Translations under genes and position numbers: made by a program | NCBI GenBank assembly: GCA_003024175.1 | Contig: MDYQ01000207.1 | Coordinates: 62,001 to 126,000 of the forward strand | Length of the DNA: 64,000 nt | Source: Planoprotostelium fungivorum | Taxonomy: Eukaryota; Evosea; Variosea; Cavosteliida; Cavosteliaceae | Direction of reading: 5' to 3' | Shown here: positions 3,791-51,113 of the stretch, piece after piece | How the letters are laid out: the number at the start of each line of letters is the position of its first letter | How positions within the stretch are numbered: the stretch's first letter is position 1 | Notes under the pieces: generated by a model | The model's database searches: none | The model's input: only the letters and a program-made list of their open reading frames with translations | What the model was told of the DNA's origin: nothing

Positions 3791-6700
3791 ATGTCAACGA
3801 TGACAGGAAGAGATTTATATCGCGGAAGCGGAAGCCAAGCACGTGACTGTAACTCAGCCGAGCTACAACATCATTCGCCCTCTCGACCACCGCTGTATGG
3901 GCTGACCCATGCCAGACGGGCTACTCTTGGTGCTCCGGCGTCAACTCGTGCTACGATCCCTCTCAGTACAGCTGTAATACGGACCAGTATCACGGACAGA
4001 ATCGTCTCTGTGCCATCGGAACTACCTCTTGCAACGACGTCTGCATCGCTTCGTGCGCCTATCAGTGTGGAACCGACGGCACGGTGGGTTCATCTCGTGC
4101 AGATGATGAAGACCCGATCGACTGATGAAGGTTCAGTACACTGCCAAGATCGACCGCACTTGCTCTTCTCCTCCGTCTTGTGTGACCAACAACGTGATGG
4201 CTTGCGGTGACGCGTGTTACGACAGCAGCAAGTTCTGCTGCGTCTCTGGCCAGTCTCAAGACATCAGCACCTGCCCTCAGCCCACTTCGACTGTCTCTGA
4301 CACGACTTGCAAGAGTCCCTTCGGTCTCTACAACGTCCGCTCTTTACTGGGAGGTCAATTCCGCATCAACGTTGGAAATAACGCCGCCTCCCCGGTGAAT
4401 TTCACTGTCTGCTGGATCTCTCTTCGATCAGAAGGGTCAGCAGTGCTACATCTCCACCAGCGGTCAGCTTCTGGCCAGTCCGGCTCCTCTCACCACTGCT
4501 GCCAACGCTGTTGTCAAGACAATCTTCGGTATCTCTGGTGACTATCTCAGCCACGACGGTAGCCTCTTGTGGTACGCCTGCTCTGCGACGTCGGGTGGCT
4601 CGAACTTGTTCATCAACAAGGTCAACGGTCTTGCCTGCTCTGCCAACTACTTGTACGCCACTCTCACTGGCCCCACTGTGCTCACTCTTTCCACCAATAT
4701 CATCACTTCGGTTGTACCCTTAACCAACGTCATCAGCTCGGTACTGCCCTTGACCAAAGTCATCACTGCCATCTTACCATCGACTCCCAACCCCTCGGCA
4801 GCGACCACTTCCATCCCCGCTGCCAACTCTATCCTTCCTGTCACGGCCATCTCCATTCCTGGAGGCCCATCTGTTCCCATCCCCTTCTGCTACTACTCCT
4901 TCAACAACGGTACCGTGGGCGGTCTGTTGAAGGACGACAGTGGAAACGGTAGAGTTGCCTCCGTGCTTGGCTTGCCCACTGTCATCTTGGGAAAGACGAA
5001 GCAGGCTCTCGGCTTCGACTCTTCTTCTGGCTTCCAGGGCCTCAGACTCGATCAGACTGCCGGTCTCGACGGTGCCTTCACTNAATAATGCCGCCTCTCC
5101 CGTGAACTTCACTCTGTCTGCTGGATCTCTCTTCGATCAGAAGGGTCAGCAGTGCTACATCTCCACCAGTGGTCAGCTTCTGGCCAGCCCAGCCCCTCTC
5201 ACCACTGCTGCCAACGCTGTTGTCAAGACGATCTTCGGTATCTCTGGTGACTACCTCAGCCATGACGGTAGCCTCTTGTGGTACGCCTGCTCTGCACCAA
5301 CGGGTGGCTCGAACTTGTTCATCAACAAGGTCAACGGACTTGCCTGCTCTGCCAACTACTTGTACGCCACTCTCACTGGCCCCACTGTGCCCACTCTGTC
5401 CACCAACATCATCACCAACGTCATCAGTTCGGTGTTGCCCTTGACCAAAGTCATCACTGCCATCTTACCATCGACTCCCAACCCCTCGGCAGCGACTACT
5501 TACATCCCCGCCACCAACTCTATCCCTCCTGTCACTGCCATCTCCATTCCTGGAGGCTCATCTATCCCCATCCCCTTCTGCTACTACTCCTTTGACAACG
5601 GTACCGTGGGCGGTCTGTTGAAGGACGACAGTGGAAACGGTAGAGTTGCCTCCGTGCTTGGCTTGCCCTCTGTCATCTTGGGAAAGACGAAGCAGGCTCT
5701 CGGCTTCGACTCTTCTTCTGGTTTCCAGGGTCTGAGACTCGACCAGACTGCCGGTCTCGACGGTGCCTTCACTATCGCCACTTGGTTGAAGGTGAGACTC
5801 ACTATTTCTGTTGTCTTGTAGACGTCGCTGAGATTGTACAGGCCCAAGCCAGCAACAAAGTGATGAAGATCGTGACCACGAAGAAGGGTCTCTTCTCTCA
5901 GCTTACCGGCTGGGAACTCTCTCTCAACCCCGTCACAAAGATTTGCACCTTCGCCTCTGGCTTCTCTAGCGTCTCTTGGAACACCAGCATCCCCATTGAT
6001 ACATGGTTCCATTTGGCCTTCACTGCAGAGAAGAGTGGCAAGGTCATTCTGTACATCAACGGCGTCGCTGCAGCTACTCAGAACATCGCCTTGTCCAAGC
6101 CCACTGGATCTATCTACATCGCCGCCGACAAGACCGTCAGCAACTTCAAGGGTGCCCTCGATGACTTCCTCATGTTCACTCAGTCTCTCTCTGCCCAACA
6201 GATCCTCTCGATCATCAACAACAAGAGCACCGCTTCCACGTCTGCATCCGCCACAGATGCAGTGATGACCTCTCAACCTATCCCGTCTGACACTCCCATC
6301 ACATCTGACACTCCCGTCACATCTGACACTCCCATCACATCTGATACTGCCACCCCATCTTCCACTGTCGCACCCTCGTCTACCGCGGCTACCGGTAAGA
6401 AGTGTGGCTTACCCTGGCTCTACTGGTCTTTCGACAAGATCAACCAGGGAAGATGTACCGATGATTCTGGCCACGGCCGTCACGGCGCCTTCTCCACCGA
6501 CATCTCTCTCGTCGTCGGTAAGCTGAGACAAGCCTTGAACTGGAAGAGCGGTAATCGCCTCTACATCACTCTGCCAAAGTTCGATCTGAACAAGGCCTTC
6601 ACCATCGCCACCTGGTTACGCCTCGATGCGATCGGAGGAAAGAACGTCATCGCTACCACCAAGGCTCTTCTCAGCGGCTGGGAACTTACCTTCGATGGCA

Positions 6701-7134
6701 GCACCAAGCAGATCACCTTCCAAACATCTCAGGGCAGCTCTGTCAGCTGGGACGCTAAATCTCTCCGCGTCGGTGCGTGGTCCCACGTTGCCGTCGCCGT
6801 CAGTGCCGATCGTGCCGAACTCTACTTGGACGGCATCTCCTGTGGCGCCAAGCCCATCTCTGCCCTCGTCCAGAGCGTCGTCGGTCTCAACGTCGGAGGG
6901 AAGTTGTCGGCCGATCCTCTTCGTGGTACTCTCGACGAGTTCCTCGTCTTCGATCGCACTCTCGTCAAGGAGGAGATTGTCGATGCCAGGGACAAGTACC
7001 TCACTGGAGCGATCGTACCTGCCAACAACTGGAGCAAGCAGACAAACTCGTACGACTGGGGAACTGGCTGGGAGCTTGGAAAGGTTCTCTCTAGCGTCAA
7101 TTTGAACAGAGTGCAGAACTGGTGGATCTTCTGA
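3791..7134 (+). CDS. Secreted Cys-rich protein with two LamG/concanavalin-like domains (interrupted by assembly join)
   Basis: A probable extracellular or cell-surface protein. From about 3880 the frame gives a short hydrophobic run (SFALSTTAVWA) ending like a signal-peptide site, then a Cys-rich region (CQTGYSWCSG..CYDPSQYSC). The true start is unresolved; 3791 is the nearest upstream ATG and its frame does not join simply. A Thr/Ser/Pro-rich middle leads to a first LamG_3-type lectin/glucanase fold (YYSFNNGTVGG, DDSGNGR, FTIATWLK, WFHLAFTAEKSGKVILYING, about 5570-6230). After an 18-base repeat linker a second LamG domain follows (WLYWSFDKINQGRC, DDSGHGR, HVAVAVSADRAELYLDGI, about 6400-7010). 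The region before the first LamG is present twice around an N at 5083, and the first copy is out of frame with what precedes it, so the true gene is shorter or differently joined. Confidence 0.7.
4377..5773. repeat. Direct duplication of about 0.7 kb flanking an N (probable assembly artefact)
   Basis: Bases 4377-5082 and 5084-5773 are two closely similar copies of the same coding segment, joined by a single N at 5083. They differ by scattered substitutions, an 18-base in-frame stretch present only in the first copy (around 4710-4730), and two bases missing in the first copy near 4406. The pattern fits two diverged alleles or collapsed paralogues placed end to end by the assembler; a real tandem duplication is less likely. 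Confidence 0.75.
6283..6354 (+). repeat. Four 18-base tandem repeats encoding a Ser/Thr/Pro/Asp linker
   Basis: Four consecutive 18-base units (6283, 6301, 6319, 6337) with core ACATCTGACACTCCC encode a repeating SDTPIT/SDTPVT linker between the two LamG domains. Such Thr/Ser/Pro runs are usually heavily O-glycosylated stalks in secreted proteins. Confidence 0.85.
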
Positions 7135-23904: not shown

Positions 23905-23910
23905 TTTATT
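23905..23910 (-). terminator. AATAAA poly(A) signal overlapping the first receptor's stop
   Basis: On the minus strand the stop and signal run together as TGAATAAA, giving a very short 3' UTR. Confidence 0.55.
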
Positions 23911-26900
23911 CAAAAGTGGGCCATTCCATAGGCATCGGGACCAGCATTCAGGATGGGGGGTGGTGATCGAGACCTCTCCTGCGGCCTCTCGTGCTGCAGC
24001 CTCGTTCCAGCGACTCTCATCAATATTCTGTTCTCTGCCACCGACTCTGTGCTGAACGGTTCGTCAGAGATGATCGCACGAACGGCTCACCATGATGTGA
24101 TCATGTCTTTCCACGAATTGGGTATGGTGTTCTTGATGCCATCTTCGATCTGAAGGGAATGAGAACAAGTACAGAGGGAGAGACAAACCTGCCGACGTTG
24201 CGTCATCTCGTCAAAGATGATGCCGAAAGAGTATCTGTCTGTCGTCAGCTAATATGATTCTCCATAGTGGTGGATAACTCACACGTCTCCTTCTGGACTC
24301 AGTCGGTTGTTCTTCATCACTTCTGCTGCCTTTACAAATCAGAGGAATTATTCGTACGGAAACTCACCGTGTACTTGTTCATGTACTCTGGCGTGTCATA
24401 CACTGTCTCTGCTCCGTAAGCTGACAGCTTGACCAGATGTGTGGAAGAGATGTAGACCTTGCGAGGGCAGAGTCTGCCGTGTATGAAGCTGTTCTCGTGC
24501 AGATAGGTCACAGCTGAGGCGATCTGCTTCATTCTGATTATCGGTCAGAATACGGATGAGAGATGAGGGTTCACATGGTCAATATCTCTTCGTTGGTCCA
24601 TTTGATTGCTCGAATGATCAGCTGTAGGTATGTCAGCCAATCTTCGCATGTGATGCAGACATTGACGGTGTCTTCCGTCATGATGGTGGTCTTCGCACTC
24701 ACATCATGAAGAGAACCATGCTTCATGTAATCCACCACCAGACATATCATCTGTTCCTCTGTATACAGTCCAAGATGCATCAAGATGTTTGGATGATGTA
24801 TGTCCTGCTCTCTCGTCACTCTCCTCTCTTTCTCTCCTCTCTTCTCTCTTCTCACCTTCAGTCTGTTACCTTCTGTCATCAGCTGCTTTGCCTTCTCTCT
24901 GTCTTTTGTCTTCTTGACAGCCACGTCAGTCGTGTGTGACTTGCTTGCAAGGTAGATGATGCTCTTTGCGCCTCTGCCGATCTCTTCTTTCGTCTCTACA
25001 TCCTGTTCTCTGTCATTTCTACGATATAATACGTAAATCATCTTCTCACATCTAATGGTTCCAGACTGAGAACTGAGAACTTATTATCCCTCTTCTTTCT
25101 CCTCGCGATTAAAATGGCGATGAGCACGACCACTGTACAAAGCGTCATTTTCTGTCATCATCTGTCGTGACACTCACACAAGATGATGGGAACGATGCCA
25201 GCGATAGCGATCAGATACATCTTGTTGTACCCTCCTGCAGAGCCACTCGCAGGCGACAGCTCAGAGATAGTCTGAGAAGAGCTGACAGGCACAGGTCTAC
25301 CGAGAGTGAAGTTTGTGAGATGACTGCACAGACACGTCACACTCTTCTCTGCCACTCTTGTGCTGCATCCTTCTCTACTCCACGATGACGTCATCTGCTT
25401 CCAGAACAGACATTCATGCTCTACTTCTCATTCAGTCGTCTGTCTCTCCTTTCATCTCACCTCTTGTGATGTTGTCATCTTCTGTGATGGTTATCTCTAT
25501 CTCTATCAGAGATGCTGCATTCGTCACGTTAGCGTGGGTGTCGTCGACGTACAGACTGAGACCGACGAAACGATCGATGCTGTTCTGTGTCAGCTGAGAG
25601 ATGACGTCATATGATATCATCACGTGGTCCATTGTACGTCGACAGGGAAAGGAATGACAGGTATCTGACACAGAATGACAGAGACGGGTGTGCTGCCGTT
25701 ACCCTGTGATACGCTGCGAATGACTGAAGCAGGAAGAGAGAAACTCGTCCTGTTATTCTCTATGCTCCCCGTCACGTCGCCGGCGTTCTACAACGATCAG
25801 CGTCTCACTCTCTTTCCCTCCTCACCGGTGATATCTTAGACGCGTAGATGCTGACTCCCACGGAGCTGTTGTATATGAACTTTGTGTCTGACGTCAGCGC
25901 GGAGAAGGAGATGTCTTCTATCGTCTCAAATAGTTTAGGAATGGACTTGAGATCGATTGAGTCCAGTGGATTTTTGTATGTCAGGGGAAGACTGGATAAC
26001 TTTGGATAGCCCACAGATTGCAGTGAGACGGTGATGAAAGAGGTGGGAAGATCGTATGGAACGGTCAAGTTGAGCCGGAAGGTGGCACCGGAAATCGATT
26101 GACACTTTGCAGCAAAGGAGAGGCACAGATTCGCATTGGCGCCCGCATTTTGACCTGACGATGATCATCGTCGGTCACTCGATGTGATGATGCTTTAAGA
26201 TGCGAGAGGAGACTCACCACTCACGGTGATGATCTGTCCTCTGATCTCCGCCGATAGAGTGGGGGGAGGATAAGAGAATAGAAATCGAAGGGCGGAGCGG
26301 CTGGTGTTGTCTGAGAGGGTGAAAGTGGAATTGGGACCTGAGCCGGCGGGCAATCTGGCCACCACCGTGTCGATCGTCTGGGAGATGATGGTGATGTTTC
26401 GGTTGTTGCTCGTGACACCCGAAGAGAGAGGGTTGTAGAAGAAGCCTATAAGCGTCACGTTTCCACCGTCCGTGGTGAGGTATGATGTGTCGATGGAAGA
26501 TATCATGGAGCTCTTCCAGAGGATCTGCGACGTATTACTGTTATACTGGATGAGTTGTCCGTTGTTAGATAGTGTGACATTGTAGATCGTGTAGAATGAG
26601 CCGGGGATGCCTCTGCCTCCATTCGATCCACTTGACCAGGTGGCAGGGGGGTTAGGAGTGGTACTGTTGTAAATCACTAAGTTTCCATCTATTATAATAG
26701 TCAAGATCGATCTTCTTCTCATTCATCACCATCTTGTAAAATGATGCGCCGATACGGATCAGAGCCGCCATTAGCGAAGCCGACCGTTCCCCATCTTGAG
26801 ACGGATGAATCCTGATAATGCACGACGTGAGCCTCCAGATCCGTTGAGAACTGAAACGATCATTCGATCATCCCATTATTGTAATCACTCACGGTCAGTT

Positions 26901-27096
26901 TCCATTGCCCGTTCGGTGAGACGAGAGGGAGAGAGGTACCTGTTGTATCCACCCTGTCTTGATAATTTCCAGCGAACTCAGCGTACAGGGCTGTGAAGCC
27001 CGAAAAGAGAGGGCCGGTGTTGGTGACACTCGGATTATCGTATGCATGAGCCGAGAGAATCACGTAGAACAGACAGAGGACGATGAGACGGCTCAT
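23910..27096 (-). CDS. Lectin-TIG-GPS receptor with cytoplasmic pseudokinase (copy 1)
   Basis: A single-pass receptor of unusual design. MSRLIVLCLFYVILSAHAYD is a signal peptide. A B-type (bulb) lectin domain follows (DGNLVIYNSTTP, LSNNGQLIQYNS, about 26530-26700), then an IPT/TIG-like segment (TTDGGNVTLIGFFYNPLSSG) and a GAIN-like region (VGVSIYASKI, IDRFVGLSLYVDD, SLIEIEITI). A full GPS motif is present at about 25300-25410: ECLFWKQM, WSREGCSTR, CLCSHLTNF, with the HL/T cleavage triad. One helix (MYLIAIAGIVPIIL plus VVVLIAILIA) leads to a basic stop-transfer and a kinase fold: GRGAKSIIYLA loop, VAVKK lysine, HPNILMHLG. Catalytic motifs are lost: HRD is HGR in FIHGRLCPRK and DFG is AYG in VKLSAYG. 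The C-lobe keeps DVYSFGIIFDEM, and a 40-residue tail ends YGMAHF. About a dozen short introns. It probably signals by scaffolding, not phosphotransfer. Confidence 0.8.
24366..25405 (-). repeat. Blocks nearly identical to the second receptor gene (28471-29480)
   Basis: Stretches 24366-24535, 24745-25010 and 25149-25405 match 28471-28641, 28815-29100 and 29238-29480 almost base for base, including intron pieces, whereas the ectodomain exons of the two genes are strongly diverged and the intervening pieces are less alike. The conserved part encodes the GPS, membrane helix and pseudokinase. Confidence 0.8.
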
Positions 27097-27499
27097 CTTG
27101 TGGTTTGATTCTGTCTAACTGGAATCTTTCTCTATTCACCCGCTGTATGGCACATCCTGCCATTCACTGTCACATCATTCTGGAGTCTAGAACATCAAGT
27201 GTTTTTTCGTTTCGATTCAACACGAGGCCGGTGGTGGGCTGTTCATTGTACGAGCGGACACGTCTCTGTCCAGTTGGCATGCAGAGACTTGAGTATGATC
27301 GCCTCTCACGTCGATCCGCAGTGATCCTCTTTGTGTAATGACAACAACGGACGTGCCTGTAACATCCACCAGTGCACGACCGTCAATCTATTCCGATCAA
27401 CCTCTCTTCACATCATCTGTTCGCTCACGGATCGTGTCACAGCGAAGAAAATTAAAATACACATGTTCGTCTCTCGTCTTTATGCAAATAGAAAACAGT

Positions 27500-27715
27500 T
27501 TAGTGGGTAGCCTTCTGCTTGTAAGCCTCGGCCTTGGCGTCGTGGCTCGACTCGTCCATCTTGTCCTTGGCAGCGTCGATGCCGGCGTTGAGACGAGTGC
27601 CGATGCTCTGGTCGGAGTCCTTGGCGACCTCCTTGTTGGCCTCCTTCGAGCCGGTGGCAAAGGTAGACTGGACAGACTCTGAGACGTAGTTGGCAGCGTT
27701 CTTGATGGTTTCCAT
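27500..27715 (-). CDS. grg1: Grg1-like small stress/glucose-repressible protein (71 residues)
   Basis: An intronless 71-residue hydrophilic protein starting METIKNAANYVSESVQ and continuing KEANKEVAKDSDQSIGTR and SSHDAKAEAYKQKATH. This is the pattern of the fungal Grg1/CCG-1 family (glucose-repressible, clock-controlled genes of Neurospora), whose members begin METxKNAANYVSE and repeat SKEANKxVAKDS. The molecular function is unknown; transcripts in fungi rise on starvation and stress. The composition is almost all helix-forming, LEA-like. The gene lies between the two receptor paralogues on the same strand, is not spliced, and uses the most common codons. It may be a lateral acquisition from fungi or an old shared family; see the findings. 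Confidence 0.82.
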   Translation of the reverse strand: METIKNAANYVSESVQSTFATGSKEANKEVAKDSDQSIGTRLNAGIDAAKDKMDESSHDAKAEAYKQKATH

Positions 27716-28057
27716 TGTTGTTTGTGTGTTGTTCTGTTGTTTGTGTTCATGTGGCCAGTCAACGGATGAATGCGTAAGATGAAATCTACCGGTGTTCTCG
27801 CTTGATTCTGATGGATGAGATGCCACGCGGCGTGGAACACGGCGAATACCTGTATATTTAGAATTACGTATGGAGTGTCAATCAGGAGATTTCAGCCTAA
27901 TCCACGCGCACTACGATGTTAGCCATACCTCTGTCGCTTCAGCGGATGAACAGGCAGAGTGGTATTTTGGATGTCTATCATCAACGACTCGAAAGGCTCA
28001 AAGATGATGTGAACATCTTCCGGTGTCATGTTACAACATCGTTCTATTTCAGCTTCC

Positions 28058-31000
28058 TCAGACATGAATGGTACCATAAGCGTCAGTGACTTGGACAGGT
28101 GCATCATCGAATTGTCCACTCCCCTTCGATTGTTGGTTTAGACGTTTTCCCAACATTCTCATCGATATCCTCTGTTCCGACTCTTGTGTGCTGTGAGAGG
28201 TCAATGTTAAATGTAATTATCTCGTCTCTGACTTACCATGCCCTGACGATGTCTCTCCATGCATCAGGAGCGGCACCCTTGATATCGTCCTTCACTCTTC
28301 TGCGACTCATCATCTCATCAAAGATGACACCGAAAGAGTATCTGTCTCATCGTCAACCTCTAAAAGTTCACGATGATGCACACATGTCTCCAGCTTCCGT
28401 CAGCTGTTTGTCTCTCAAATCTTCCGCAGACTGCCACGCCGTTAGAAGAGACGAAGAGATGAACGAAAGACTCACCGTGTACTTGTTCATGTATTCTGGC
28501 GTGTCATACACTGTCTCTGCTCCGTAAGCTGACAGCTTGACCAGATGTGTGGAAGAGATGTAGACCTTGCGAGGGCAGAGTCTGCCGTGTATGAAGTTGT
28601 TCTCGTGCAGATAGGTCACAGCTGAGGCGATCTGCTTCATTCTGTGTTCCAACGTTAATTGATGAGATGGGTGATGGACACTTACATGGATTGTATCTCT
28701 ATCAAGTCAAAGAAAGTTCCCTTCGCCAAGACCTGCTGATGTCAGATTTCTTGTCGCGTAGATGATGCGATGATCATCGTGCCGACTCACATCATGAAGG
28801 GTGCCCTGATGCATGTAATCCACCATCAGACATGTCATCTGTTCCTCTGTATACAGTCCAAGATGCATCAAGATGTTTGGATGATGTATGTCCTGCTCTC
28901 TCGTCATTTTCCTCTCTTTCTCTCCTCTCTTCTCTCTTCTCACCTTCAGTCTGTTTCCCTCTGTAATCATTTGCTTCGCTTTCTCTCTGTCTTTTGTCTT
29001 CTTGACAGCCACGTCAGTCGTGTGTGACTTGCTTGCAAGGTAGATGATGCTCTTTGTGCCTCTGCCAATCTCTTCTTTCGTCTCTACATCCTGTTCTCTG
29101 TCACTCTATGCATGCGTGTATGTTTCTCACGTCCTGAGGTTCCAGACTGAGAACTGAGAATGAACTGCTCTTCTTCTTCCTCGTGATCAAAACAGCGATC
29201 ACAACGACCACTGTAGAAACTCATCTTCCGTTATCATCTGTCGTGACACTCACACAAGATGATGGGAACGATGCCAGCGATAGCGATCAGATACATCTTG
29301 TTGTACCCTTCTTCCTCGCCATTCGCAGGCGACAGCTCAGAGATAGTCTGAGAAGAGCTGACAGGCACAGGTCTACCGAGAGTGAAGTTTGTGAGATGAC
29401 TGCACAGACACGTCACACTCTTCTCTGCCACTCTTGTGCTGCATCCTTCTCTACTCCACGATGACGTCATCTGCTCCCAGAACAAACACTGCAAGTCTGA
29501 AAGTCTCAGTATGCAAGTGTCAGATGTGTCGTACCATTTGTGGTGGAGTTGTTTGGAAGAGAGATGGTAATCTGTATGGGAGGAGAGACGTTCCGTACGC
29601 TCACGTACGTATCGTTTACGTACAGGCTCAACCCGATCAAACTTCCCACTCTATGATATCATCAGCCAGTGACGATTGGTGACGTCATCTTACGTCATCC
29701 ACGTGTCTCCCTGTGGAAAAGGATTGATGGAAAATTGACTCAACACCACAGACAGTCTCGTACCGCTCACGTTCGTCGACACATCAGCCGTCGACAGACT
29801 TCGAATGATCGACGAGGGGATGATAAACTGGGTCTCGTTGACCCCGATTGCTCCCTCGAAGTCACTGTCGTTCTACAACAGTCAACTCCTCCCTACTCCT
29901 CCCTCTCACCTTTCTGATGACAGAAGCGTAGATGGACACCCCCGTAGAGTTATCGATGGAAAATGTGTCAGAAACCGTCAGCGCTCTTTCCACGAGATTC
30001 TCCACGGCGGACGACAGACTTCCCGGCGATGCTCCACCAGCCGTCAGGTCTTCGAGAGATTGAGACGGGCTCGTGTACTCAAAATCTCGTCGGAAAGTGG
30101 CAGAAGCATTGAACCAGGTGAGAGATACGGTCAGCTGACCCGATGCGACCGATGATGGCACGATGAAGAGAGCAGAGAAGACGGATCCACTGACGCTCTG
30201 ACAAGATGTACGGATGAGGGATATACAGAGAATAGACGGTGAGTCAGAAGGACCAGCGTTGGTACCTGGTTGGATGAGATGACATCATCGACGGTGAGCC
30301 GTCTTTTCACCGGATACATTGATGAGGAGGGGTTCAGATTGGATGAAGAAGGAAGGAGAAGGATAAGAGAATGGTATGGCCAGTGTCGATTGGCAAGCTC
30401 CCAGAGTGAGCGTCAGATTCAGGCCAACTCCTCCTGGTATAGATACGTTTGCCGTCGTTGTGGAAAAGCTCGTGAGTGGGATATTATAGATTGTGCTTCC
30501 CATCTGCATTGTGCCGGAGGATAAGCGGTTAAAAACTCCATGCAGAATGAGCAACCCTCCATCTGTAGTCACCTCGCTCACATCGATGGAGTGGATGATC
30601 GAGCTGGACCACCACAGAGTGGATTCGGTCTGGTTGTACTGTTCTATTCGTCCGTCGTCGGTCACGGTCAGATTATAGATGACCGGTCGAGGTTCAGAGA
30701 TGGCTCGACCGCAGGCCCCCAGCGAGCTGGCCCAAAGAGCTTGAGAAGTTTCGCCCGCCTTTGTGGACACATTATACCAGACCACATTTGCATCTGCATT
30801 CCAATCACCTTGTCATTCTTCGAACGCCTGCTCACCACTTTGAACTCCCAAAAAGAAAGAGGTACCAAAGACGTCCGCGAATGGTGTCGGACGCCACCTC
30901 CAAAACGAGGGATCCTCATAGTGGACCACTTGAAGCCACCCATCGCTCGAAAACTGACCGTATCGTCAGATCTTCTGCACATCATTCGAATGAGTATCAC

Positions 31001-31204
31001 CGTCAACTGCCACTCTCCACTGGAGGAGATGACGGGATAACTATCGTTAGAGTTGGACAATTGATGGGATGGATTGTTACTATACACAGCGAGCCACCCA
31101 GAAAAGAGAGGGCTCGTGTGATTCACGAGCGGTAGGGGATCGTTGATATCCTGACCGAATGCAGAATAGACACATACCACGAAGACGAGGCATGTTTGCA
31201 TCAT
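28058..31204 (-). CDS. Lectin-TIG-GPS receptor with cytoplasmic pseudokinase (copy 2)
   Basis: A tandem paralogue of the gene at 23910-27096. MMQTCLVFVVCVYSAFGQD is the signal peptide. The lectin-like ectodomain reads NHTSPLFSGWLAVYSN, VISSSGEWQLTV, then VIYNLTVTDDGRIEQYNQ. A TIG-like segment follows (TTDGGLLILHGVFNRLSSG), then GAIN-like strands (GVSIYASVIRK, LIGLSLYVNDTYVSV). The GPS is intact: QCLFWEQM, WSREGCSTR, CLCSHLTNFTLG (about 29370-29470). The membrane segment is MYLIAIAGIVPIIL plus the next exon. The kinase fold keeps VAVKK but has HGR for HRD and AYG for DFG, as in copy 1. The C-lobe reads YSFGVIFDEMMSRRRVKDDI and the tail ends VTDAYGTIHV at 28058. Ectodomain exons differ far more from copy 1 than the GPS-kinase part, suggesting different ligands feeding one output. 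Confidence 0.8.
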
Positions 31205-40267: not shown

Positions 40268-40665
40268 AGAACTCGAAGAGAAAGAGATGATGTCACCATC
40301 GTGTCGATGAATCAGTATTGGAGGTGCGGGCGGTTGACTGTGGAACTGTCCATGCAATATCTCCGGCGTCGTCTCATGTGTTGTCTTCCCTTCACTCACT
40401 TGAGGGAAGACAAGTGTGAAGGGACCAATGGATCTCCAATGGAAGCAGAGAGAGACAAAGGGCTCCTCTTCATTCACAAGAAGGCTGAGAGGCTTTCCTG
40501 TATTGATTGGAAAACCTTTTGCTCAATCGCATTTTCCCAAAGTATTCATATGCAGTGCGGGAAAACAGAAGGAAAACTTCTCCTGAGAGAGACCACGAAG
40601 TCGCATACGCACATCGACAACAACCAAACAACACGTACTCTAGACAACGTACTACTAATTAACGA
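40268..40665. other. Intergenic region, no feature seen
   Basis: About 400 bases between the SH3 gene and the Ras gene. A plus-strand open frame (40301-40720) crosses it but has no motif. It presumably holds the Ras promoter. Confidence 0.35.
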
Positions 40666-41412
40666 ATGGCACTATCACCAGACAGACATCGACAAGATAC
40701 GGCCAACACGAGGAGATTGATTGTCCTCGGTTCAGCGGGTGTGGGGAAATCGGCTGTGACGATTCGATGGGTCCAAGGCAACTTCATCAGCGCGGTGAGA
40801 AGATGGACAATGCAATCGACTCTTATCGGTGCCAGTATGATCCGACCATCGAAGATTGTTATAGTAAAACGATCGAAGTGGATAAGAATGCCGTGCGAAT
40901 CGAAATTTTAGACACCGCTGGAAGTGTGAGTTATGCATTTTGGAGTGGACCGATCTCGACAGATCGACTGATAGAGGGACAGGAGACGTTCTCCGCTATG
41001 AGGGAATTATACATGAACAGCGGTCAAGGATTCATCCTCGTCTACAGTATCACCCAACCGGGGAGTCTCGAATCACTGAGGGACCTCCGCAATCAGATCT
41101 TGGACATCAAACAAACCACAGTGAGTCTCTCGTATCCGTCTATCACCCTCCCATCTCGCCATAATCATGATCCTGAATCGTCTTCAGCCGCCGATGATTC
41201 TGATTGGAAACAAATCGGACCTTGCAGATGAGAGGAAGATATCAGTGGCCGACGGCCAAGCTCTCGCGAAGGAATTTGGCTGTCCCTTCTATGAGACATC
41301 TGCATTAGAATTCAGAAACATAGAGGAGGCCTTCTCAGACGTGATGAAGTATGTCATGAGGCAATTTCCAGTGGCCGTGAAGAAGAAGTCTGGTTTCTGT
41401 ACACTGATATGA
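40666..41412 (+). CDS. Ras-family small GTPase with CAAX box
   Basis: A membrane-anchored molecular switch. It begins [20 protein letters not shown], a 15-residue extension before the first strand. G1 is GSAGVGKSA; the effector loop, after an intron at about 40797-40837, is [11 protein letters not shown], near-identical to Ras. G3 is ILDTAG, followed by an intron; G4 is NKSD and G5 is ETSA. The C-terminus is polybasic (VKKKSG) ending in the CAAX box CTLI, a Ras/Rap-type prenylation signal. FSAMRELYM and GFILVYSIT also match the Ras/Rap branch. Three introns. Which residue occupies the Gln61 position depends on the acceptor used near 40980 (see findings). The subfamily cannot be fixed by eye. 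Confidence 0.92.
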
Positions 41413-41776: not shown

Positions 41777-43918
41777 TCAAGCAAACTTGTCGTCCGTGTA
41801 CGTGGCAAAGTCGAACTGGTCTGCCTCTCCGGGCATTCTCTCAGCCAAAAAGTTGACATCGGTCTCTTCCATGGGAGTGACAAAGAGGTCAGACTTTCTG
41901 ATGAGAGGCTGCTCGTTGGACAAGATACGGAAGGACTGCTTGATCTGAGCGGCATCATCCGTGTCCTCCATCACGCTGGCCATGTGTGCCAAAAAGTGAT
42001 CGAAACCAATCTTGTCACCACCACCGGCAACCTGACCTCATGAGTCTCTCTCTCTTCCTTCTTATGCTCACCGTTCCATACAAGTGGTTGAAAGCGTCAT
42101 CGGGGTAAGTCTGACCCAGTGTCTGCAGGCAAGATCTGAACTCGAGTTTGTCCAAGTGGTTGTCACCCGACTTGTCAAAGTGCTTGAAGGCCTCCTTCAG
42201 CTCGTTGATCTGCTCGGGCGTGAGACCCTGCTTGTTGTTCGCGGCCGCAATCTGCGACTCTAAGAACTGCTTCTTCTTGTCGACGGCAGTCTGCAGCTGA
42301 TCTCTCTCGGTGGCCAGCTCATCGTAAGAGGTCTCGGTGTACGGGTTATCGTCTTCGAGGCCGGACAGCTCGAGCTGCTTGTACACGACTTCGGTCTCCT
42401 TCAGTGGCTCGGCCGTTTCCAGCTCGGCCGACTTCTCGGTGAGGTTAGCCAGCTGTTCCTGTGGCTCTCCACTCTGATCGTTGACGGAGATCTTGATGCC
42501 CTGCAGCCACTGTGCGGTGTTCTGTGCCCTCTCTGCGTAGGACTTGTGGAGGGCGTCCTTCTGCTGAGACAAGTGATCGCGGAGGGCCTTGCCGCGGTGT
42601 CTCTCGGCTTCGGCGAGGGCCTGGAAGGCGGCGTCGACTGTTGGTGTGAGGGTCCATTTTTACTTGTGAAGGCTCACCTGTTTCGGGGGCGGTCTCTTGC
42701 TCGGGCGTCCAAGGCTTTCTCTTGTTCGTGCGGAGCTTCGATTGGATGCCAGAGTAGGCTGTGACGCGTCAGATTGAGACAGAAGGAGACATCTCACCGG
42801 TCTCGTTCTCGAGCTTCCTCTCGTTGAGCTGAGGCTTCACGTTGCGACGGTAAGCCTTGTGCTTGGCCAGGAGAGCCTTCGTCTCGTCGTAGCTCTCGGG
42901 GAAGTTGTTGTCGTTCAGCTCGTTCGTGTGCTGGTGAACGTCTCCCAACAACTGAGAGAGGATCAACGGTGAACGGAGAGGGAGAGACTCACGGCGGTCG
43001 TGTTGCTGTTGTACTGAGCTTCGAGGGCCTCGATGTTCTCGTGGAAACGAGCAAACTTCTGAACACGACGGGCGGCGTTCTCCTTGTGGTCCTGGCTGGT
43101 GAACTTGTGGTAGAACTCTGTGCATCGTGTCAGACGATCGTCATGTGATCGGATGTAGACGATCTCACCGGAGATGTAAGTCATCACGGAGCGCTCGTCG
43201 GGTCGATCCACATCGAGATCTTCGACATCGAGGAGGGGTGAGATGCCGAGGTGCTGCTCGGCCACGTCGAATGCGAGCTGCAGGTTCTTCTTGTGGTCGC
43301 TCTTGTCGAGGGAGTTGAAGTCTAGGAGGTCAGGTCTGTGCTTGTGGATGAGGGCACAGAGGGCGAGACCGTCTCTCCACGAGTTGGAGAAGTTGTCGAC
43401 CTTGACATTCTCGTAGCCCTTGGTCTTACGCTGACACCACAGGAGGAGAGCCTCCTTGGCGGACAGCTCCTCGACGGAGATACCCTTGATCTGGTAATCC
43501 AGAATGATGGCCCAAATCATACCCAGAATCATCTTGAGATCGTGGTCGGTGAGATCTGAGGAGGATGAGAGGGTGGAGATGGAAATGAAAACATACGGAA
43601 GGGCTTCAAAAAATTGGTCTTGATCTGAGCCTTGTCGACCATGTCGAAGGCGAGGGAGATGTTGTCCAGCTTCTGTGGCTTCATCTTGGGTGCGGGGTTG
43701 TGCTTGGGAATGTCCAAACCATAGAGGGATTTGATGAGCTGCATGAGCTTGACTCCAGTCTCGAATTCGGTCTGGCAATCGTCAATGTGAGCTCCAACCT
43801 TCTTCAGATGGCTGTTCATCCATTTTGTGAAGGTCTGTTTAAGCGAATCAGTTTACGTTGCAGAGGGAGGATCTCTCACCTTCTTCTGCACAGAAACCCA
43901 GGCTGCTTCCTCAGACAT
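41777..43918 (-). CDS. Alpha-actinin, short-rod type
   Basis: An actin-filament cross-linker. It starts MSEEAAWVSVQKK joined to TFTKWMNSHLKKVGAHIDD, the CH1 actin-binding domain (GVKLMQLIKSLYG, LDNISLAFDMV). CH2 reads DLTDHDLKMILGMIWAIILD, KEALLLWCQRKTKGY, SWRDGLALCALIHKHRPDLL and SVMTYISGE. A rod of about 240 residues follows, enough for roughly two spectrin-like repeats against four in animals. The C-terminal EF-hands read LKEAFKHFDKSGDNHLDKLE, a canonical calcium loop (D-K-S-G-D-N-H-L-D), then a more degenerate hand, and end with PGEADQFDFATYTDD. About 630 residues in all, close to the short alpha-actinins known from Entamoeba. Non-muscle calcium-regulated type is likely from the intact first loop. 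Five or six short introns. Confidence 0.93.
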
Positions 43919-45417
43919 TTCTTTTCGATGATTCTTTTTTACAGACAATACCTACGAGGTCTCGTTAGAAATACGTTCGTTAGTCTCGTCAGTCATCAGA
44001 AGAGACGAGAAGATGGAGATGGAGTGCGGCTCACCCGTGGGCTTCGCTACGTTTATGTTCCCTGACAGCGGAAGCAGCTGAGAGAAAAATCTTCGGTGCA
44101 ATATTTTTCGTATTTCGTGTGCGCAACCGTTCCATGAGATGGATGATCTGCTCAACCGCTGCGTTCAAGCGGCCTTGGGTCATCGCACACACCAGTTACC
44201 ATTAGGTGATGACTGAGGTGAAGCTCCGTGAGAGGGTGTTCGGCGGAGATCAAGATATTAACTCGGTAGAGGGGGAAATGCTTGTCGAAAGCATTTTTGA
44301 GGGGAACAGCGGCTGATGTCATGCTTCTGCGCAGCCAATCAGTATCTGATGCGAAGAACAGAAAGGAGCGAGACCTTCTTCTCTTCTGCATCTTCATTCA
44401 TCTTTCAACATGATCTTCACATAAATCAATCAAATCATTACGAGTGAGAATCTTTTATTCGTTCGGATTGTGATGAACGTGGACCATCGGTCGATTCTGG
44501 CTGTCTCGGGTACTTGTCCATCTGTTCTCTACCTCCTCAAACTGTAGAACTTCTCATCGCCCAAGCCAGGCTCTTACACCCGGCCTATAGGGTCAAGTGA
44601 GACTCTTCCAGCCGATTCAGAAGCTTCGCCTGGGGATACGCTTCCACCTCAGCTGTACTGCAAGGATCCACAGACATCTTTCATTCTGCTTCTCCTTGTC
44701 TTTTCATCTTCTGTCGTTGCTGAGCTCGTCCTCGACGAGTGCATTGACGTCCGACGCGGTTATGACTGAAGGCTCATTGTTCTTGTTTTCGTATGGGCTC
44801 TGATCATCTAAATGTAAATCAGTCAGTAAACCCTGGAGTCTCCTTCTTCTTACCAAAGAAATATGATCGGCTGGAGGCTCTTTAGGCTCAGGAAGTTGTG
44901 ATCTCTTTCCATCCATTCTTATGCAATCGAGAGGAGGGGTATGGCGTCTTAGCATTGCGAGGAGGTTTCAGATGAGAAGTTGTTTCGGAGACATCTCGAT
45001 CTCATCCGTAACGCTGTGCTCAATAGATACCAAACCGTCGTGAATTTGGTGGATAGCTCCAAGCATAAGAGAGATATTCAAGGTATGATTTCTTCAAAGA
45101 TGATGGTCCTTTCAATGTCTGATGATGTGTCCGCCATGTGCGATCGGATGCCGACCTGCTCGAAAAACTTTTTCCTCCACTGAGGATCGATCTCTTTCAA
45201 TGCCAATCCGATCCTCCCCAACAGACTGCGACGCAAGTTCAGTGGATGAGGTCCGAGACATTGTCACCTGGTGGCCTGGTAGAGGAGGACTTGTAGTTCC
45301 TCGTACTTTTCTCTGGGCCACCTGCCTTCTAGAGGTGGCTCGCAGGTGGCAAGTCCTCTGACGAAGGTGAGGTCATGTGATGATGTTCAGCAAATGGAAC
45401 AGAAGAGAACATCCAGT
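43919..45417. other. 1.5 kb without a supported gene; possible coding remnants
   Basis: Includes the alpha-actinin promoter at its left end. On the minus strand 45082-45240 reads as a coding-like segment (RRSLLGRIGLALKEIDPQW, EQVGIRSHMADTSSDIER) without stops, and 44704-44955 is open (LQGLLTDLHLDDQSPYENKN). On the plus strand 44980-45183 is also open. I could not join any of these into a convincing gene or match them to a family. They may be an unrecognised small gene, decaying exons, or chance. Confidence 0.3.
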
Positions 45418-48400
45418 TTATGAATCCAAGGATTTCTCATCCACATTGACAGCCATCATATCGCTCGTCGAGGTGTATCTGGTGTCCAAGTGATCCACGT
45501 TCACGGCATCATATCTGCAGCCATCATCGCTCACAGTGAGTTTCTCTGCACGAATGTCATCTGCTTTGCTCAGGTCTCCGTCAGACAGCCAGTTGCAGAT
45601 CTGAACAAAGTCCGGTCTGTCTTCTGGATTGTGCATCCACACTCCTGCCACGAGTTCAAACAAGACCTCTTCATCTCCTCTCACCCTTCATGATGGCTTG
45701 CAGCATGGGCGTTGCATCTTCTGGCATATCTAATCTGTAACGAATGAGATCGAATCGAAGAGAAAGAGATGAAATAAAACTCACCTCTGGTCGCTGATGA
45801 TCTTGATGGCCACATCGACCATGGCTATATCTTCCCACGGTTCTCTTCCAGTCAAGATCTCCCAGATAACAACACCAAAAGAGAACGCTGCTCTCTCGTC
45901 AGCTCTCACCTCATCTCAACATCTCACCGTCCGACTTAACGCTGTACTGTCTCTGCTGGATGGCCTCGGGTGACATCCATTTGACGGGTCCGATGGTACT
46001 GGCTGTGGTGGATGCACTGTCTTTGTGTTGCACTTGTCTGGACATTCCAAAGTCACTGACCTTCGCTTCCAGATGTTTCCTGATGATGATGAGTCACGCG
46101 AATGGACGAGATAGACGAACGAGAGGAGGATATTCCTGGCGGCGAGATCTCTGTGAATGATCTGTAGGAATCAGATCCATCCGTTGGTGCACGTGTTACC
46201 TTCTCTTGATGCAGATGGAGAACTCCTCTGGCGATACCAAGGATGATGTCTTCCTTCTTCTCTTGTGTCACTTGATGATTCTGTAGGTAATCGAGGAGAC
46301 AGCCACCTTCGCAGAATTCCCTTCAGAATAATTCAGTGGAGTTCATCTACAACTTGACATCTCACGTGACGATAGACAGAGGATCGGGAGGGAAAGTATA
46401 TCCCATGAATAAGACTACGTTCTGTCATCTCATCAGTTTCATCATCTACACTCATCATCTCACCGGATGAGGTCTCATGCTCTGCACCAGGGAGGCTTCG
46501 TCCTATACCATCTCAGAGAACGAAGGAGATGATGAACTCACCAAGAAACTCTGCATCTGATCTGTGTTGATGTGTTCACTGCGTACCTGCACGATGTCAC
46601 GACATCTATCGTAACATCATCTCTCACCTGCTTGACAGCCACGGTGTTACTTCTCCACTGTGCTCTGTACACCACACCGAAAGCTCCTGATCCAATCAAG
46701 ACTTGATCTTGCAATTCACTGAATGGTATCTGCATGTCTCAATTCATCGCTATAACATGTCATCCTCGATCTCCTCACCACACTCTTCAGCGTGGCATTG
46801 TTGTTGATCATTGTGAAATCGACTAATTCGAAGCTTGTCTTGTACACTTGCTTCTTCCTCGTGATCAACAGGACGATGATCACGATGAACACCAAAAGGA
46901 CTACACTGGCGATGACGATACCAGCGATAGCACCTCATCTCATCAGCGAACAAGAAGAAGATGGAAGTCACCTCCAGAGAGGCCGTTCGAGCTGGTGGGA
47001 GCGTCGGGGGTGATGGAAGAAGAGACACTGAGCAGCGTGATGTTCATGGCACTGTAGGCTGAGCTTCCTATTTGGTTGAGATACTGCACGACCCTCTCTG
47101 ACGATCCTTCTGTCGATCCCGCTGAGAGATGTCAGTCGTGATCCACGAAGAGGGTTCACCAGGTGGGGCGGAGATATCGAGGTCTGCGATCACACTGCCC
47201 GATCTCGTTCTTGTGATCTTGATTCTGTCACTGTTGATGCTGGCGATGGTTGCGATGCCACGGATGAAAGAGGAGGAGTCGAAGGTGGAGACGTCACCTG
47301 CTCAATTCAGGAGATGAGAAGGTTATCCAACTCACCCGCGATTCGGATGGACATGTTGGCTGACTGATGGTTGTTGACCTGACACTTCGCCCCACAGAGA
47401 GTAGATGCTTGCTTCGTCAGAGGACAGACGAACGTCTGCTGGGAGAGGTCGCAGCGAGTCAGAGAAGGGACGTCTGTCATGAACATGGCATCATCAAATC
47501 TGTTGAATGATAGATCGAGAGTGGACAGCGATGTGCAGCCGGTAAGATCTGGTATCGATCCGTTGATCAGATTGTGACTGAAACGTATGAGAGGATGAGA
47601 TAGATGAACGAGTCACCTGGCATCAAAGTATTTTAGATTAAATAGTCCTAAATCTTTTTAAACATCGATTCGATTATGCTGCAAATCACCGGAGAGAGAG
47701 GGAAGAGATGTGATGAGATTCGAGCGAAGATCAACCGTGGACAGTCCTTTCATTCCGTTCAATGTCTTGATCTGTCCGCTGAACGAATTATCTGAGTTCG
47801 TCAGTGCATTCGATGAAAAAGATGCGAGTCATCACCGCTGAGATTGAGATAAGTCAAAGAAGACAGCGTGTCCAAGAAGTTGAGGGGCATGCTCAGCGCA
47901 TTGCTGAAGATATCTCAGCCATCAGGAGATGAGAAGATGCTTGTTGTTTACCTGGATAGATCGATCGACTGTGGATCTGATTTCAATGGATAGGGTACAC
48001 CTCCCGTCAGTCGATTGTGAGACAGAGACAAAACTCTCAAATTGATCTGCTTGGCTGATATCTTCTCAGCTCCTCCTTTCATTCATCTTCAACTCACTCA
48101 AACCAACAGGGATCTCTCCTTGGAGCAGATTGTGGGACTATCTCGTGTCAGTCAATCATCGATGCATCATTACTCACCAGATCGAGGACCTGCAGTCCAG
48201 TCGAATTGCTTGTGTCTGGAATGTTTCCGTTCAGCAGATTGCCCGACACGTTCAATGATATCAGATGAGACAGCGTGAAGACATCTTGCAATCCTCCAGT
48301 CAGCAGATTGTTGCCCAGCGATAGACTCGTCAACGATCTGCATCAGATCAGCTTTGACTGGTTGTAGATGGACATACACAGCTCTCGTGACAGACTTGGG

Positions 48401-51113
48401 GATGTCGCCGGTGAGTCTGTTGTTATCCTGATCCCATCAATCGTTGTGAAATTTCAATGAAATCTCACGAGATTGAGAAGAACCATCTCAGGTAGACCCA
48501 AGGATTCTACCGGATGTTAAATGAAATTTCACTTGAATTTCCTCGTCTCACCTAATGGAATGATTCCGTTGAACAAGTTGTGGGACAGATCTGAATGACG
48601 TCATACACATGATATCATGGAGATTCGTACCAACGTATTGCAATGTGACCATCTGCGCAATTCTGGGCTCGATGTTTCCAGACAGCTGATTTCGGCTCAG
48701 GTTCAGATAAGATAGAGATCCGAGCCTATCCTACATCAGATGACGTCATCATGAGTCACACTTCACTTTCCGATGGTGAATTCCATACTTCCAATGAGTT
48801 GATTTGAGCTGAGATCGAGATGATACAGTGGCATGTTGGCAGCGTAATTCTACCGTACGTGAGAATGAATCCAATGGAGAGACTCACCGGAGGCATTCGG
48901 CCAGTCAGTTGATTGTTCGACCAATCGCAGTAGGTCAGATAATTCCTGTGGATAATTCAGCACTCACACCGATCCTTCACTCACAGTCCGTAGATCGAGC
49001 TACATGGTCCAGAAAACTGATTGTAAGAGATGTCCAGCAGCTGTATCGAAGGCATACCAGACATCCAGAAGACAGTTCCGTTCAGTTGATTGTTCTGGAT
49101 CTGTAGCTGGAGCACACTGGAAGGTAGATTCGGCATTGGACCGGATAGCTAGATGTCCGTCAGATTCAGGTAATGACCCGAACGATCACCTCATTGTCGT
49201 TGGCTTGTATGTACAGAAGATTCTTGAGAGTGGCGAGAGACTGAGGAAATCTACCGGAGAATTTGTTATAGGAGACGTCGATCTGGGTCAAGTATGGCGT
49301 GGAGCGGAAGACGTCAGGGATCTCACCCTCGAATCTGATCGATCGTTCAGCACCTACGGATGATGACGACTCACTGATTGAGTCCCAATAGAATTGATCC
49401 GAGGTTTTTCAATTTAGAGATATTGGGTGATATGCTCCCGGTGAATTCATTTCCTTGTAGGATCAGCCGCTGCATCTGAGTGCAGTTGTACAGTTCATCC
49501 GGTATCGTTCCGTTCATATCATTGAATCCGAAGGAGAGAATCTGGAGGCTGAGCATGTTCTGGATGGCAGGGGGAATAGAGCCGGTGATTTTGTTGATGG
49601 TCACGTCGAGTACCTGCAAATTTGTGCAACGGTAGATGGAAGGAGGTATGACGCCGGTGAAACTGTCTCTGTTCAGTCTTATTTTCTCCTCGTCCTCACT
49701 TGTTTGCAAACAAGATGATAGTGTTCAGATTTGGTATCTGATCCCACACATCCTGCGATACGATGAGACAGCGAAGACGTTTTCCTCTCACCGGTAGTTG
49801 TCCGTAGAGTTTGTTTCCGAAGGCAACCAACGTATTGAGATTCTTCAGCTGGCCGATGCTCGATGGTATCTCTCCCGTTAGCTGATTCGAACCGACGGCA
49901 ATGTAGTACATGCCAGGTAGAGTCGTGATCCAATCTGGAAATTGGCCTTCGAAAGAGTTGTAGGACACTACGTAATACTGTAGATCTGCAGAAGGTCAAA
50001 GAAGAGAGATGGGAGGACAGACGTACTCGGGCAGCCGCTGAGGTCAGGCAGAGGACCGTAGAAACTGTTACTGCTGACGATGAAGAGGATCAACTGTGAT
50101 GAGGTGAGTGGTCTGAAGATAAACCCTGATCCGCTCACGTTGGGAAGTTTCAAGGGGCCTACCATCTCGTAGAAATTTCCTTGAAAGTTGTTGGAGTCGA
50201 TCTGGAAATACGCCAGCTTGACCAGATTGTCTATTCCACACATCAGTCGATGTCATCCATCGTGATGTTCTCACTCAGTCGCGTCAAGTTGATGTAATCG
50301 AAGCTGTTTCCCCAGAGACCTAGCTGCTGTAGATTCGTCAATCCCATCAGAGACTCCTGACGGATGACTGTCAGCACATCTCATGCACCTCATCTTCCTC
50401 ACAGGTACCGAACCATACAAAGCACCACCGTAATCAGTGACCCCTATGTTGAATACAGTCAGATTGGCCAAGTTTCCAATGTCGTCGGGCAGCATGCCGG
50501 TGAACTTGTGGTCCCCCAAGTTTATATACCCGAGACGTGTTTTGGTGATCCAACTTGGAAACGGACCCGAAATGCGGTTGATATAACCCCGAGATGCTTT
50601 ACCGTTAAGATCCAGATAAGTCAGCTCTGAGGTAATAAGAAGATGTGTCACAGAGTGTGAGGAGTGAAGCGAAGATGGACGGATGACGGAAGATGATGTC
50701 GCTCACGAGAGAGACCGGAGAGATCGGGCATCGGTCCCGTGAGGTTGTTGACTATCCTCTTTAGATGGTGGAAAGTATGGTTCATCTCACCTCGAAGTTG
50801 AATGCTGATCACATGCTGCCCAGCCATATCACATTCAATTCCATAGTATCTGGCCCGAAATCAGCGTACGCCACGGTTAGAGTGTGTAATGAGAAGCTCA
50901 ACCACCTGCAGTAGCTGATGGTTGTGTTCTTCCAGTTTGTATTGTTCCTCCAATAATCGCCTGTCTCGTTGACCTTCGTCCCATCATGCGATTCTCACCT
51001 CCCAAAGCAGAGTACATGCTCTTCAAGATGACACTCTCCGCTTCTATCTGAGCGGTAGACAATGTACATAACGCTAGTAGAAGGAGGTATAGAGCAGTTG
51101 CTGTCGGCTTCAT
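45418..51113 (-). CDS. Leucine-rich-repeat receptor kinase with intact tyrosine-kinase-like domain
   Basis: A large single-pass receptor of about 1,400 residues. MKPTATALYLLLLALCTLST is the signal peptide, followed by an LRR N-cap and roughly twenty plant-type LRRs (for example LQVLDVTINKITGSIPPAIQ, LDLNGKASRGYINRISGPFP, LSLSHNRL-like units) across 47300-50950, most on separate small exons. The membrane segment is near 46870-46960, followed by basic RKKQVYKTSFEL. The kinase has GSGAFGVVYRAQW (glycine loop), TVAVKQV (lysine), HRDLAARN (46120-46160, catalytic loop), VSDFGMSRQVQ and WMSPEAIQ, then DVWSFGVVIWEILTGREPW and CWMHNPEDRPDF. All catalytic residues are present. HRDLAARN and the PVKWMSPEA loop are tyrosine-kinase-like. 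The ectodomain is of plant LRR-RLK type. The tail has several Tyr (DAVNVDHLDTRY), candidate SH2 ligands. Confidence 0.85.

Follow-up and report, generated by a model that had tools for sequence, protein, structure and literature searches.

Two tandem genes of Planoprotostelium fungivorum that join a GPS motif to a single membrane helix and a probable pseudokinase

What might a GPS-type autoproteolytic motif be for in a receptor that crosses the membrane only once and ends in a kinase-like domain? The question is raised by positions 23910-31204 of a 64,000-nucleotide stretch of the Planoprotostelium fungivorum genome (contig MDYQ01000207.1, positions 62,001 to 126,000; hereafter the window), where two receptor genes, A upstream and then B, lie in tandem on the minus strand with a Grg1 gene between them. 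The limits proposed in an earlier account based on the letters alone (hereafter the sequence-only reading) proved to be exact, the ATG of gene A lying at 31204 and the stop codon of gene B ending at 23910. The answer that seems best to explain the whole, with a probability of roughly 0.5, is that A and B encode single-pass, self-cleaving surface receptors in which binding to, or pulling on, the extracellular arm would work through a scaffold pseudokinase. The gene models, and then the parts of the encoded proteins, are as follows.

28058..31204, minus strand: gene A, predicted receptor pseudokinase; 15 exons, 846 amino acids, hand-spliced at GT-AG junctions into a single open frame; exons 31204-31001, 30953-30836, 30793-30311, 30265-29910, 29872-29694, 29650-29535, 29496-29254, 29210-29131, 29105-28944, 28892-28791, 28732-28686, 28641-28476, 28430-28384, 28341-28237, 28190-28058
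23910..27096, minus strand: gene B, tandem paralogue; 16 exons, 824 amino acids, hand-spliced at GT-AG junctions into a single open frame; exons 27096-26893, 26850-26730, 26688-26218, 26154-25826, 25787-25624, 25579-25461, 25420-25178, 25132-25081, 25018-24856, 24804-24703, 24621-24575, 24533-24368, 24329-24283, 24234-24189, 24149-24091, 24051-23910
30630..31204 (limits approximate), minus strand: A, hydrophobic N-terminus and B-lectin-like region with QSDANVVWY, from the motif, without a Pfam B_lectin match
26540..27096 (limits approximate), minus strand: B, hydrophobic N-terminus and B-lectin-like region with QDDGNLVIY, from a sub-cut-off B_lectin score and mannose lectins in the PDB
29985..30630 (approximate, by eye), minus strand: A, two TIG-like beta repeats, aligned with B, without a Pfam match
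25901..26540 (approximate), minus strand: B, two TIG-like beta repeats, from sub-cut-off Pfam scores in the first repeat
29384..29984 (exons 4-7, upstream limit by eye), minus strand: A, presumed GAIN subdomain B ending in the GPS, from GAIN matches in the PDB
25308..25900 (exons 4-7, upstream limit by eye), minus strand: B, presumed GAIN subdomain B ending in the GPS, from the profile of A and B against the PDB
29384..29488, minus strand: A, GPS motif, from Pfam (E=1.8e-10) and pattern scan
25308..25412, minus strand: B, GPS motif, from Pfam (E=2.3e-9) and pattern scan
29179..29296 (about residues 553-577, split by intron 7), minus strand: A, single transmembrane helix, from hydropathy (3.31)
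25101..25220 (split by intron 7), minus strand: B, single transmembrane helix, from hydropathy (3.30)
28058..29105, minus strand: A, probable pseudokinase and short tail, with HGRLCPRK for HRDLAARN and AYG for DFG, from Pfam and the profile of A and B against the PDB
23910..25018, minus strand: B, probable pseudokinase and short tail, the same motifs lost, from Pfam and the profile of A and B against the PDB

The GPS can be read directly in both proteins as CLFW..WSREGC..CLCSHL/TNF, with its four cysteines, two tryptophans and HL/T site intact, as had been claimed. The Pfam GPS family (PF01825) scores 41.6 bits in A and 38.1 bits in B, both above its cut-off of 22.5, and the full pattern occurs twice in the six frames of the window and in none of 200 first-order Markov simulations (a short form of it occurs once across the 200 simulated windows); the same six-frame pattern scan found no third GPS in the window. 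When the GPS region of A was compared with the sequences in the PDB, 15 of the 16 matches at E up to 10 were adhesion G-protein-coupled receptors (adhesion GPCRs), namely ADGRG3 (7qu8; E=1.2e-8), ADGRG1 (1.1e-5), ADGRG6 (1e-4), ADGRL3 (5.3e-4) and others more weakly, the sole remaining match being an unrelated protein at E=0.71, and a profile built from A and B gave the same picture (ADGRG3, E=4e-8). The match to ADGRG3 is 76 residues long and begins some 40 residues ahead of the first GPS cysteine. As the likeness thus reaches beyond the GPS itself, A, B and the adhesion GPCRs seem to have the final strands of GAIN subdomain B in common, and a GAIN fold upstream of those strands is plausible by eye. 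Pattern searches for relatives elsewhere returned 37 matches (alignment A1) and 96 matches (alignment A2) in viral contigs and 93 in prokaryote genomes (alignment A1 only), none of which encodes a relative when judged by tblastn with E no higher than 1e-3.

Beyond the GPS there is one strong hydrophobic segment (mean hydropathy 3.31 in A and 3.30 in B) and then the kinase-like domain, so that by hydropathy and Pfam a seven-transmembrane (7TM) domain is absent after the GPS in both proteins; that there is a single helix, with none further between GPS and kinase, was also the view of the sequence-only reading. The Pfam PK_Tyr_Ser-Thr family scores 108 bits in A (E=6.3e-31) and 115.5 bits in B (E=3.4e-33) against a cut-off of 23.1, and a profile of the two kinase regions has 2056 matches in the PDB with E no higher than 0.001, of which the best 60 are all tyrosine kinases by name (ABL1/2, CSK, an ABL/SRC ancestor, MET, ROR1). 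Since amoeboid TKL kinases are scarce in the PDB, the domain may belong either to the tyrosine kinase (TK) or to the tyrosine-kinase-like (TKL) group. In both genes FIHRDLAARN has become FIHGRLCPRK and DFG has become AYG, so that HGR stands in place of HRD, Lys in place of its Asn and AYG in place of DFG, while the ATP-site Lys (in VAVK) and the helix-C Glu are kept. Because HRD, Asn and DFG are all replaced, catalysis is unlikely, and the inner domain is probably an inactive pseudokinase, in agreement with what had been proposed.

Both gene models were spliced by hand from raw DNA and are predictions. All 29 introns (14 in A and 15 in B) are GT-AG and 25-81 nucleotides (nt) long, and 13 intron positions, phase included, are common to the two genes despite a protein identity of just 121/322 aligned residues in the lectin/TIG part, which is the best present evidence for the models. 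It might nevertheless be supposed that the model of at least one gene is wrong or that the gene is in decay, the GPS and kinase exons belonging to different transcripts or B being a frameshifted pseudogene. Such a supposition draws on the junction of exons 8 and 9, between helix and kinase, which is ambiguous in both genes: A could use either a 25-nt intron with a GTGAGA donor or a 49-nt intron with GTTCTC at 29154 (a choice that adds or removes eight juxtamembrane residues), while in B, among the donors tried, only the unusual GTTCTC at 25080 keeps the frame, so that splicing of B at GTGAGA, the donor that A can use, would give a frameshift ahead of its kinase. Set against this are the 13 common intron positions, the fact that in both A and B a single exon, exon 7, carries the GPS and most of the membrane helix, and a near-identical block that starts at the GPS, takes in the helix and extends into the kinase N-lobe; that these three parts were copied as one piece argues for their being a single gene. 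On this evidence mis-modelling or decay seems quite unlikely, and GPS, helix and pseudokinase most likely share one transcript, judged from the DNA, as the sequence-only reading had assumed. Other splicings were tried and rejected: in A, a 27-nt version of intron 2, whose acceptor lay before 30808 and which gave an 851-residue protein, was dropped in favour of one of 42 nt, which agrees with B in the alignment and yields the lectin motif, and in B exon 8, the GTGAGA donor and a second GTTCTC donor both gave early stops and were replaced by GTTCTC at 25080. The whole-protein Pfam scan and the hydropathy scan used the 851-residue model of A, which is the final one of 846 residues plus five residues in the lectin part.

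As to the extracellular arm, N-terminal hydropathy peaks above 1.3 (1.35 in A; 1.66 and 1.38 in B), together with the look of the sequences by eye, suggest a signal peptide in each protein; elsewhere in the two ectodomains the hydropathy peaks are weak, at 1.31-1.51. In profile searches the GPS and kinase families scored above their cut-offs, but B_lectin and TIG fell below theirs. Thus Pfam B_lectin (PF01453; cut-off 32.4) reaches 19.6 bits with B as a fragment and 14.7 in the whole protein, and gives no match in A in scans of either the whole protein or the fragment; in the first repeat of B, Pfam TIG (PF01833) reaches 16.2 bits against 20.9 and TgrO1 Ig-like 18.6 against 27.9, and the other three of the four repeats tried (both in A and the second in B) have no Pfam TIG match. 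Two further observations bear on the lectin part: the ectodomain of B, the one used in a PDB sequence search, resembles solved mannose lectins (best E=3.8e-5), and both proteins contain the pattern QxDxNxVxY, as QSDANVVWY in A and QDDGNLVIY in B, which we take to be the mannose-binding motif of B-lectins. The ectodomain of B-lectin and TIG type that had been described thus stands in part, and for both arms these names are likely rather than proved.

How, then, might the cleavage site work? The predicted cut would leave a membrane-bound fragment beginning TNFTLGRPVPV..., in which the Thr and the helix are 32 residues apart, which is at odds with the idea that the stub would sit just outside the helix. 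Passages of PMC12716839 give the consensus of the adhesion-GPCR tethered agonist as TxFAVLM, from which TNFTLGR departs, its last two positions being Gly and Arg. A receptor in which the freed stub binds back on to the receptor itself or on to a partner, and so switches the pseudokinase, would fit with the intact HL/T site and with the TNF start of the stub in both A and B. In view of the Gly and Arg, the 32-residue spacing and the single helix, which offers no 7TM bundle for a stub to enter, it is nevertheless very unlikely, and the tethered agonist that the sequence-only reading had in mind finds no support here. Because the consensus is departed from and a 7TM pocket is lacking, we favour instead a releasable joint, cleavage serving for shedding or as a force joint upon a scaffold pseudokinase.

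Spelled out, the preferred mechanism would run as follows. The ligand-binding arm, behind a signal peptide, would consist of a B-lectin of the mannose type with TIG-like repeats, followed by a GAIN-type domain with an intact GPS, the 32-residue stalk, the helix and a catalytically dead tyrosine-kinase-like domain. While the protein is being secreted, the GAIN-type domain would undergo self-cleavage at HL/T, the two fragments remaining associated noncovalently; the arm would then bind a glycan surface, and pulling might either free it or loosen the GAIN domain, altering the clustering or the exposure of the membrane fragment, with the pseudokinase acting as a scaffold or allosteric partner of an active kinase. 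A receptor kinase with leucine-rich repeats (LRRs), which has HRD and DFG and lies about 14 kb off, could serve as an example of the class from which such a partner might come.

The history of the two paralogues bears on how much weight these features can carry. At the nucleotide level, introns included, A and B are 91% identical in a tract of 718 nt from the GPS exon onwards, 98% identical in one of 182 nt around exon 12 and 89% identical in another of 46 nt. Synonymous (dS) and non-synonymous (dN) divergence are low over the GPS, stalk and helix (dS 0.09, dN 0.05), the kinase N-lobe (dS 0.22, dN 0.08) and residues 706-758, which include HGR and AYG (dS 0.14, dN 0.05); in the GAIN part directly upstream of the homogenised block dS is 2.8 and dN 0.54, at the end of the kinase C-lobe dS is 1.47 and dN 0.38, and in the lectin/TIG part dN is 0.70 with dS beyond estimate. 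We read this as probably reflecting a recent gene-conversion mosaic on an old duplication. Because gene conversion has homogenised them, the lost HRD, Asn and DFG in A and B count as a single observation. In most of what lies outside the homogenised block dN is far lower than dS, which suggests that selection has maintained both proteins. The mosaic character is also apparent at 28476-29496 and 24368-25420, where exon 11 has diverged but is flanked by tracts that are nearly the same in both genes, one from the GPS to exon 10 and the other at exon 12.

These figures also bear on whether cleavage has any switching role at all. GAIN and GPS might serve for folding or processing, or for shedding the lectin arm, in a protein that is chiefly an adhesion or phagocytic receptor or a decoy; the loss of catalytic residues from the inner domain speaks for this, and several GPS proteins are cleaved without a clear signalling role. 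We consider this doubtful, given that the non-homogenised end of the C-lobe has a dN well below its dS and the inner domain thus seems to have been retained.

There are a number of points that weigh against a self-cleaving receptor acting through a scaffold pseudokinase. The likeness to GAIN is limited to about the last 76 residues of a domain that is spread over four exons, and two single-exon structure predictions (mean predicted local distance difference test, pLDDT, 34.3 and 41.3) are uninformative as to its fold. The lectin and TIG scores all lie under the Pfam cut-offs, and the exon 8/9 junction is ambiguous, B needing an unusual donor and the corresponding intron of A being merely 25 nt. 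The identity of A and B over the GPS, the helix and HGR/AYG reflects recent gene conversion and hence lacks independent weight, kinase residues 685-705 have a dN of 0.47, about equal to their dS of 0.48, and the dS of 2.8 in the GAIN part is close to saturation. With all this in mind, we would put forward only tentatively the fuller proposal that a GAIN/GPS unit has been joined to a single-pass receptor pseudokinase such that cleavage and arm release, and not a tethered agonist, gate a scaffold, with conversion keeping the trigger-helix-kinase cassettes alike while the lectin/TIG arms diverge, as might suit a recognition repertoire.

Some other features of the window may be recorded.

27500-27715, minus strand: Grg1 (glucose-repressible protein) gene, single exon, Pfam E=8.2e-32, between A and B and unrelated to them; Grg1 is known as a fungal family
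about 45400-49800, minus strand: pieces of the LRR receptor kinase, with LRR_1 (E=1.5e-12), a hydrophobic segment seen by eye, and kinase pieces containing IIHRDLAARNILL and SDFG
5644-7131, plus strand: long open reading frame in which 6622-7131 encodes a laminin-G/concanavalin-like domain (Laminin_G_3, E=3e-14)
4399-5818: repeats that resemble, by eye, the open reading frame at 5644-7131
42018-43781, minus strand: pieces of an alpha-actinin-like gene, with a calponin-homology part (E=1.2e-50 to 7aw8) and EF-hand_6 (E=7.6e-8)
40659-41228, plus strand: piece of a Ras-family GTPase (Pfam Ras, E=6.4e-18)

In the unassembled LRR receptor kinase pieces (about 45.4-49.8 kb), which lie on the same strand as A and B, IIHRDLAARN and SDFG are intact; a pattern scan found no GPS in this region, and weak tblastn matches at 46.6-47.1 kb were traced to this kinase.

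It remains to place A and B among known systems. A GPS/GAIN receptor kinase was not found in the literature searched, which was open-access, partial in its coverage and judged by listings, abstract starts and passages; within it the terms "gain domain" and "pseudokinase" occurred jointly in 0 papers. In PMC4758236, PMC8662651, PMC4053784 (on Acanthamoeba), PMC1420674 and PMC10445921 the main text lacks the term gps altogether, and PMC2728734 and PMC2394772 mention GPS solely in a reference and a table, respectively. Receptor pseudokinases and the GPS device are each known, and it is their union that was not found in that literature; the novelty is narrower than the sequence-only reading had it, as passages of PMC12716839 already report GAIN domains in other, non-adhesion-GPCR genes of diverse non-holozoans. 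Should the preferred mechanism be right, A and B would provide a natural receptor with a cleavable GPS, no canonical agonist and one helix leading to a pseudokinase, making it testable whether GAIN/GPS needs a tethered agonist and a 7TM domain or is a general force or shedding switch.

On the kinase side, ROR1-type receptor pseudokinases share with A and B a single membrane pass and a domain named as an inactive tyrosine kinase, and ROR1 itself is among the best 60 of the 2056 profile matches; unlike A and B, they are not known to carry a GAIN domain or a GPS. Choanoflagellate GPCR-TKL/K and GPCR-TK receptors likewise end in a TK or TKL kinase domain, according to passages of PMC12716839, but are 7TM proteins, whereas in A and B a single helix is preceded by a GPS. 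Amoebal proteins may also be compared, rk3 of Dictyostelium being described in a passage of PMC1420674 as a single-pass TIG receptor kinase, and three tyrosine kinases of Physarum in one of PMC4758236 as having one helix; the main texts of these two papers do not contain the term gps.

On the side of the cleavage device, polycystin-1 and REJ proteins show GPS-type self-cleavage outside the classical GPCRs (abstracts of PMC4810088 and PMC9672506), but polycystin-1 has 11 membrane helices (PMC9672506, likewise in the abstract) against the one of A and B. ZU5 domains, reported in part of PMC3482391 to be autoproteolytic and homologous to the GPS domain, are also comparable, although the Pfam family that A and B match is GPS. 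The 1TM isoform of Drosophila Cirl is single-pass, comes from a GAIN-bearing receptor and is said in a passage of PMC13197933 to pair with the 7TM form; unlike A and B it is the product of a 7TM gene, and that passage names no kinase domain. Adhesion GPCRs themselves (ADGRG3, ADGRG1, ADGRL3) share with A and B the four Cys, the two Trp and the HL/T site of the GPS, and a likeness that starts some 40 residues before it; TIG, moreover, is listed among the N-terminal domains of adhesion receptors in a passage of PMC3251606. In adhesion GPCRs a 7TM domain follows the GPS, whereas in A and B what follows is one helix and a kinase domain, with a stub that departs from the agonist consensus. Passages of PMC12716839 date the GAIN-7TM linkage to stem holozoans, and A and B, in showing GAIN with another partner, would bear on the origin of that linkage.

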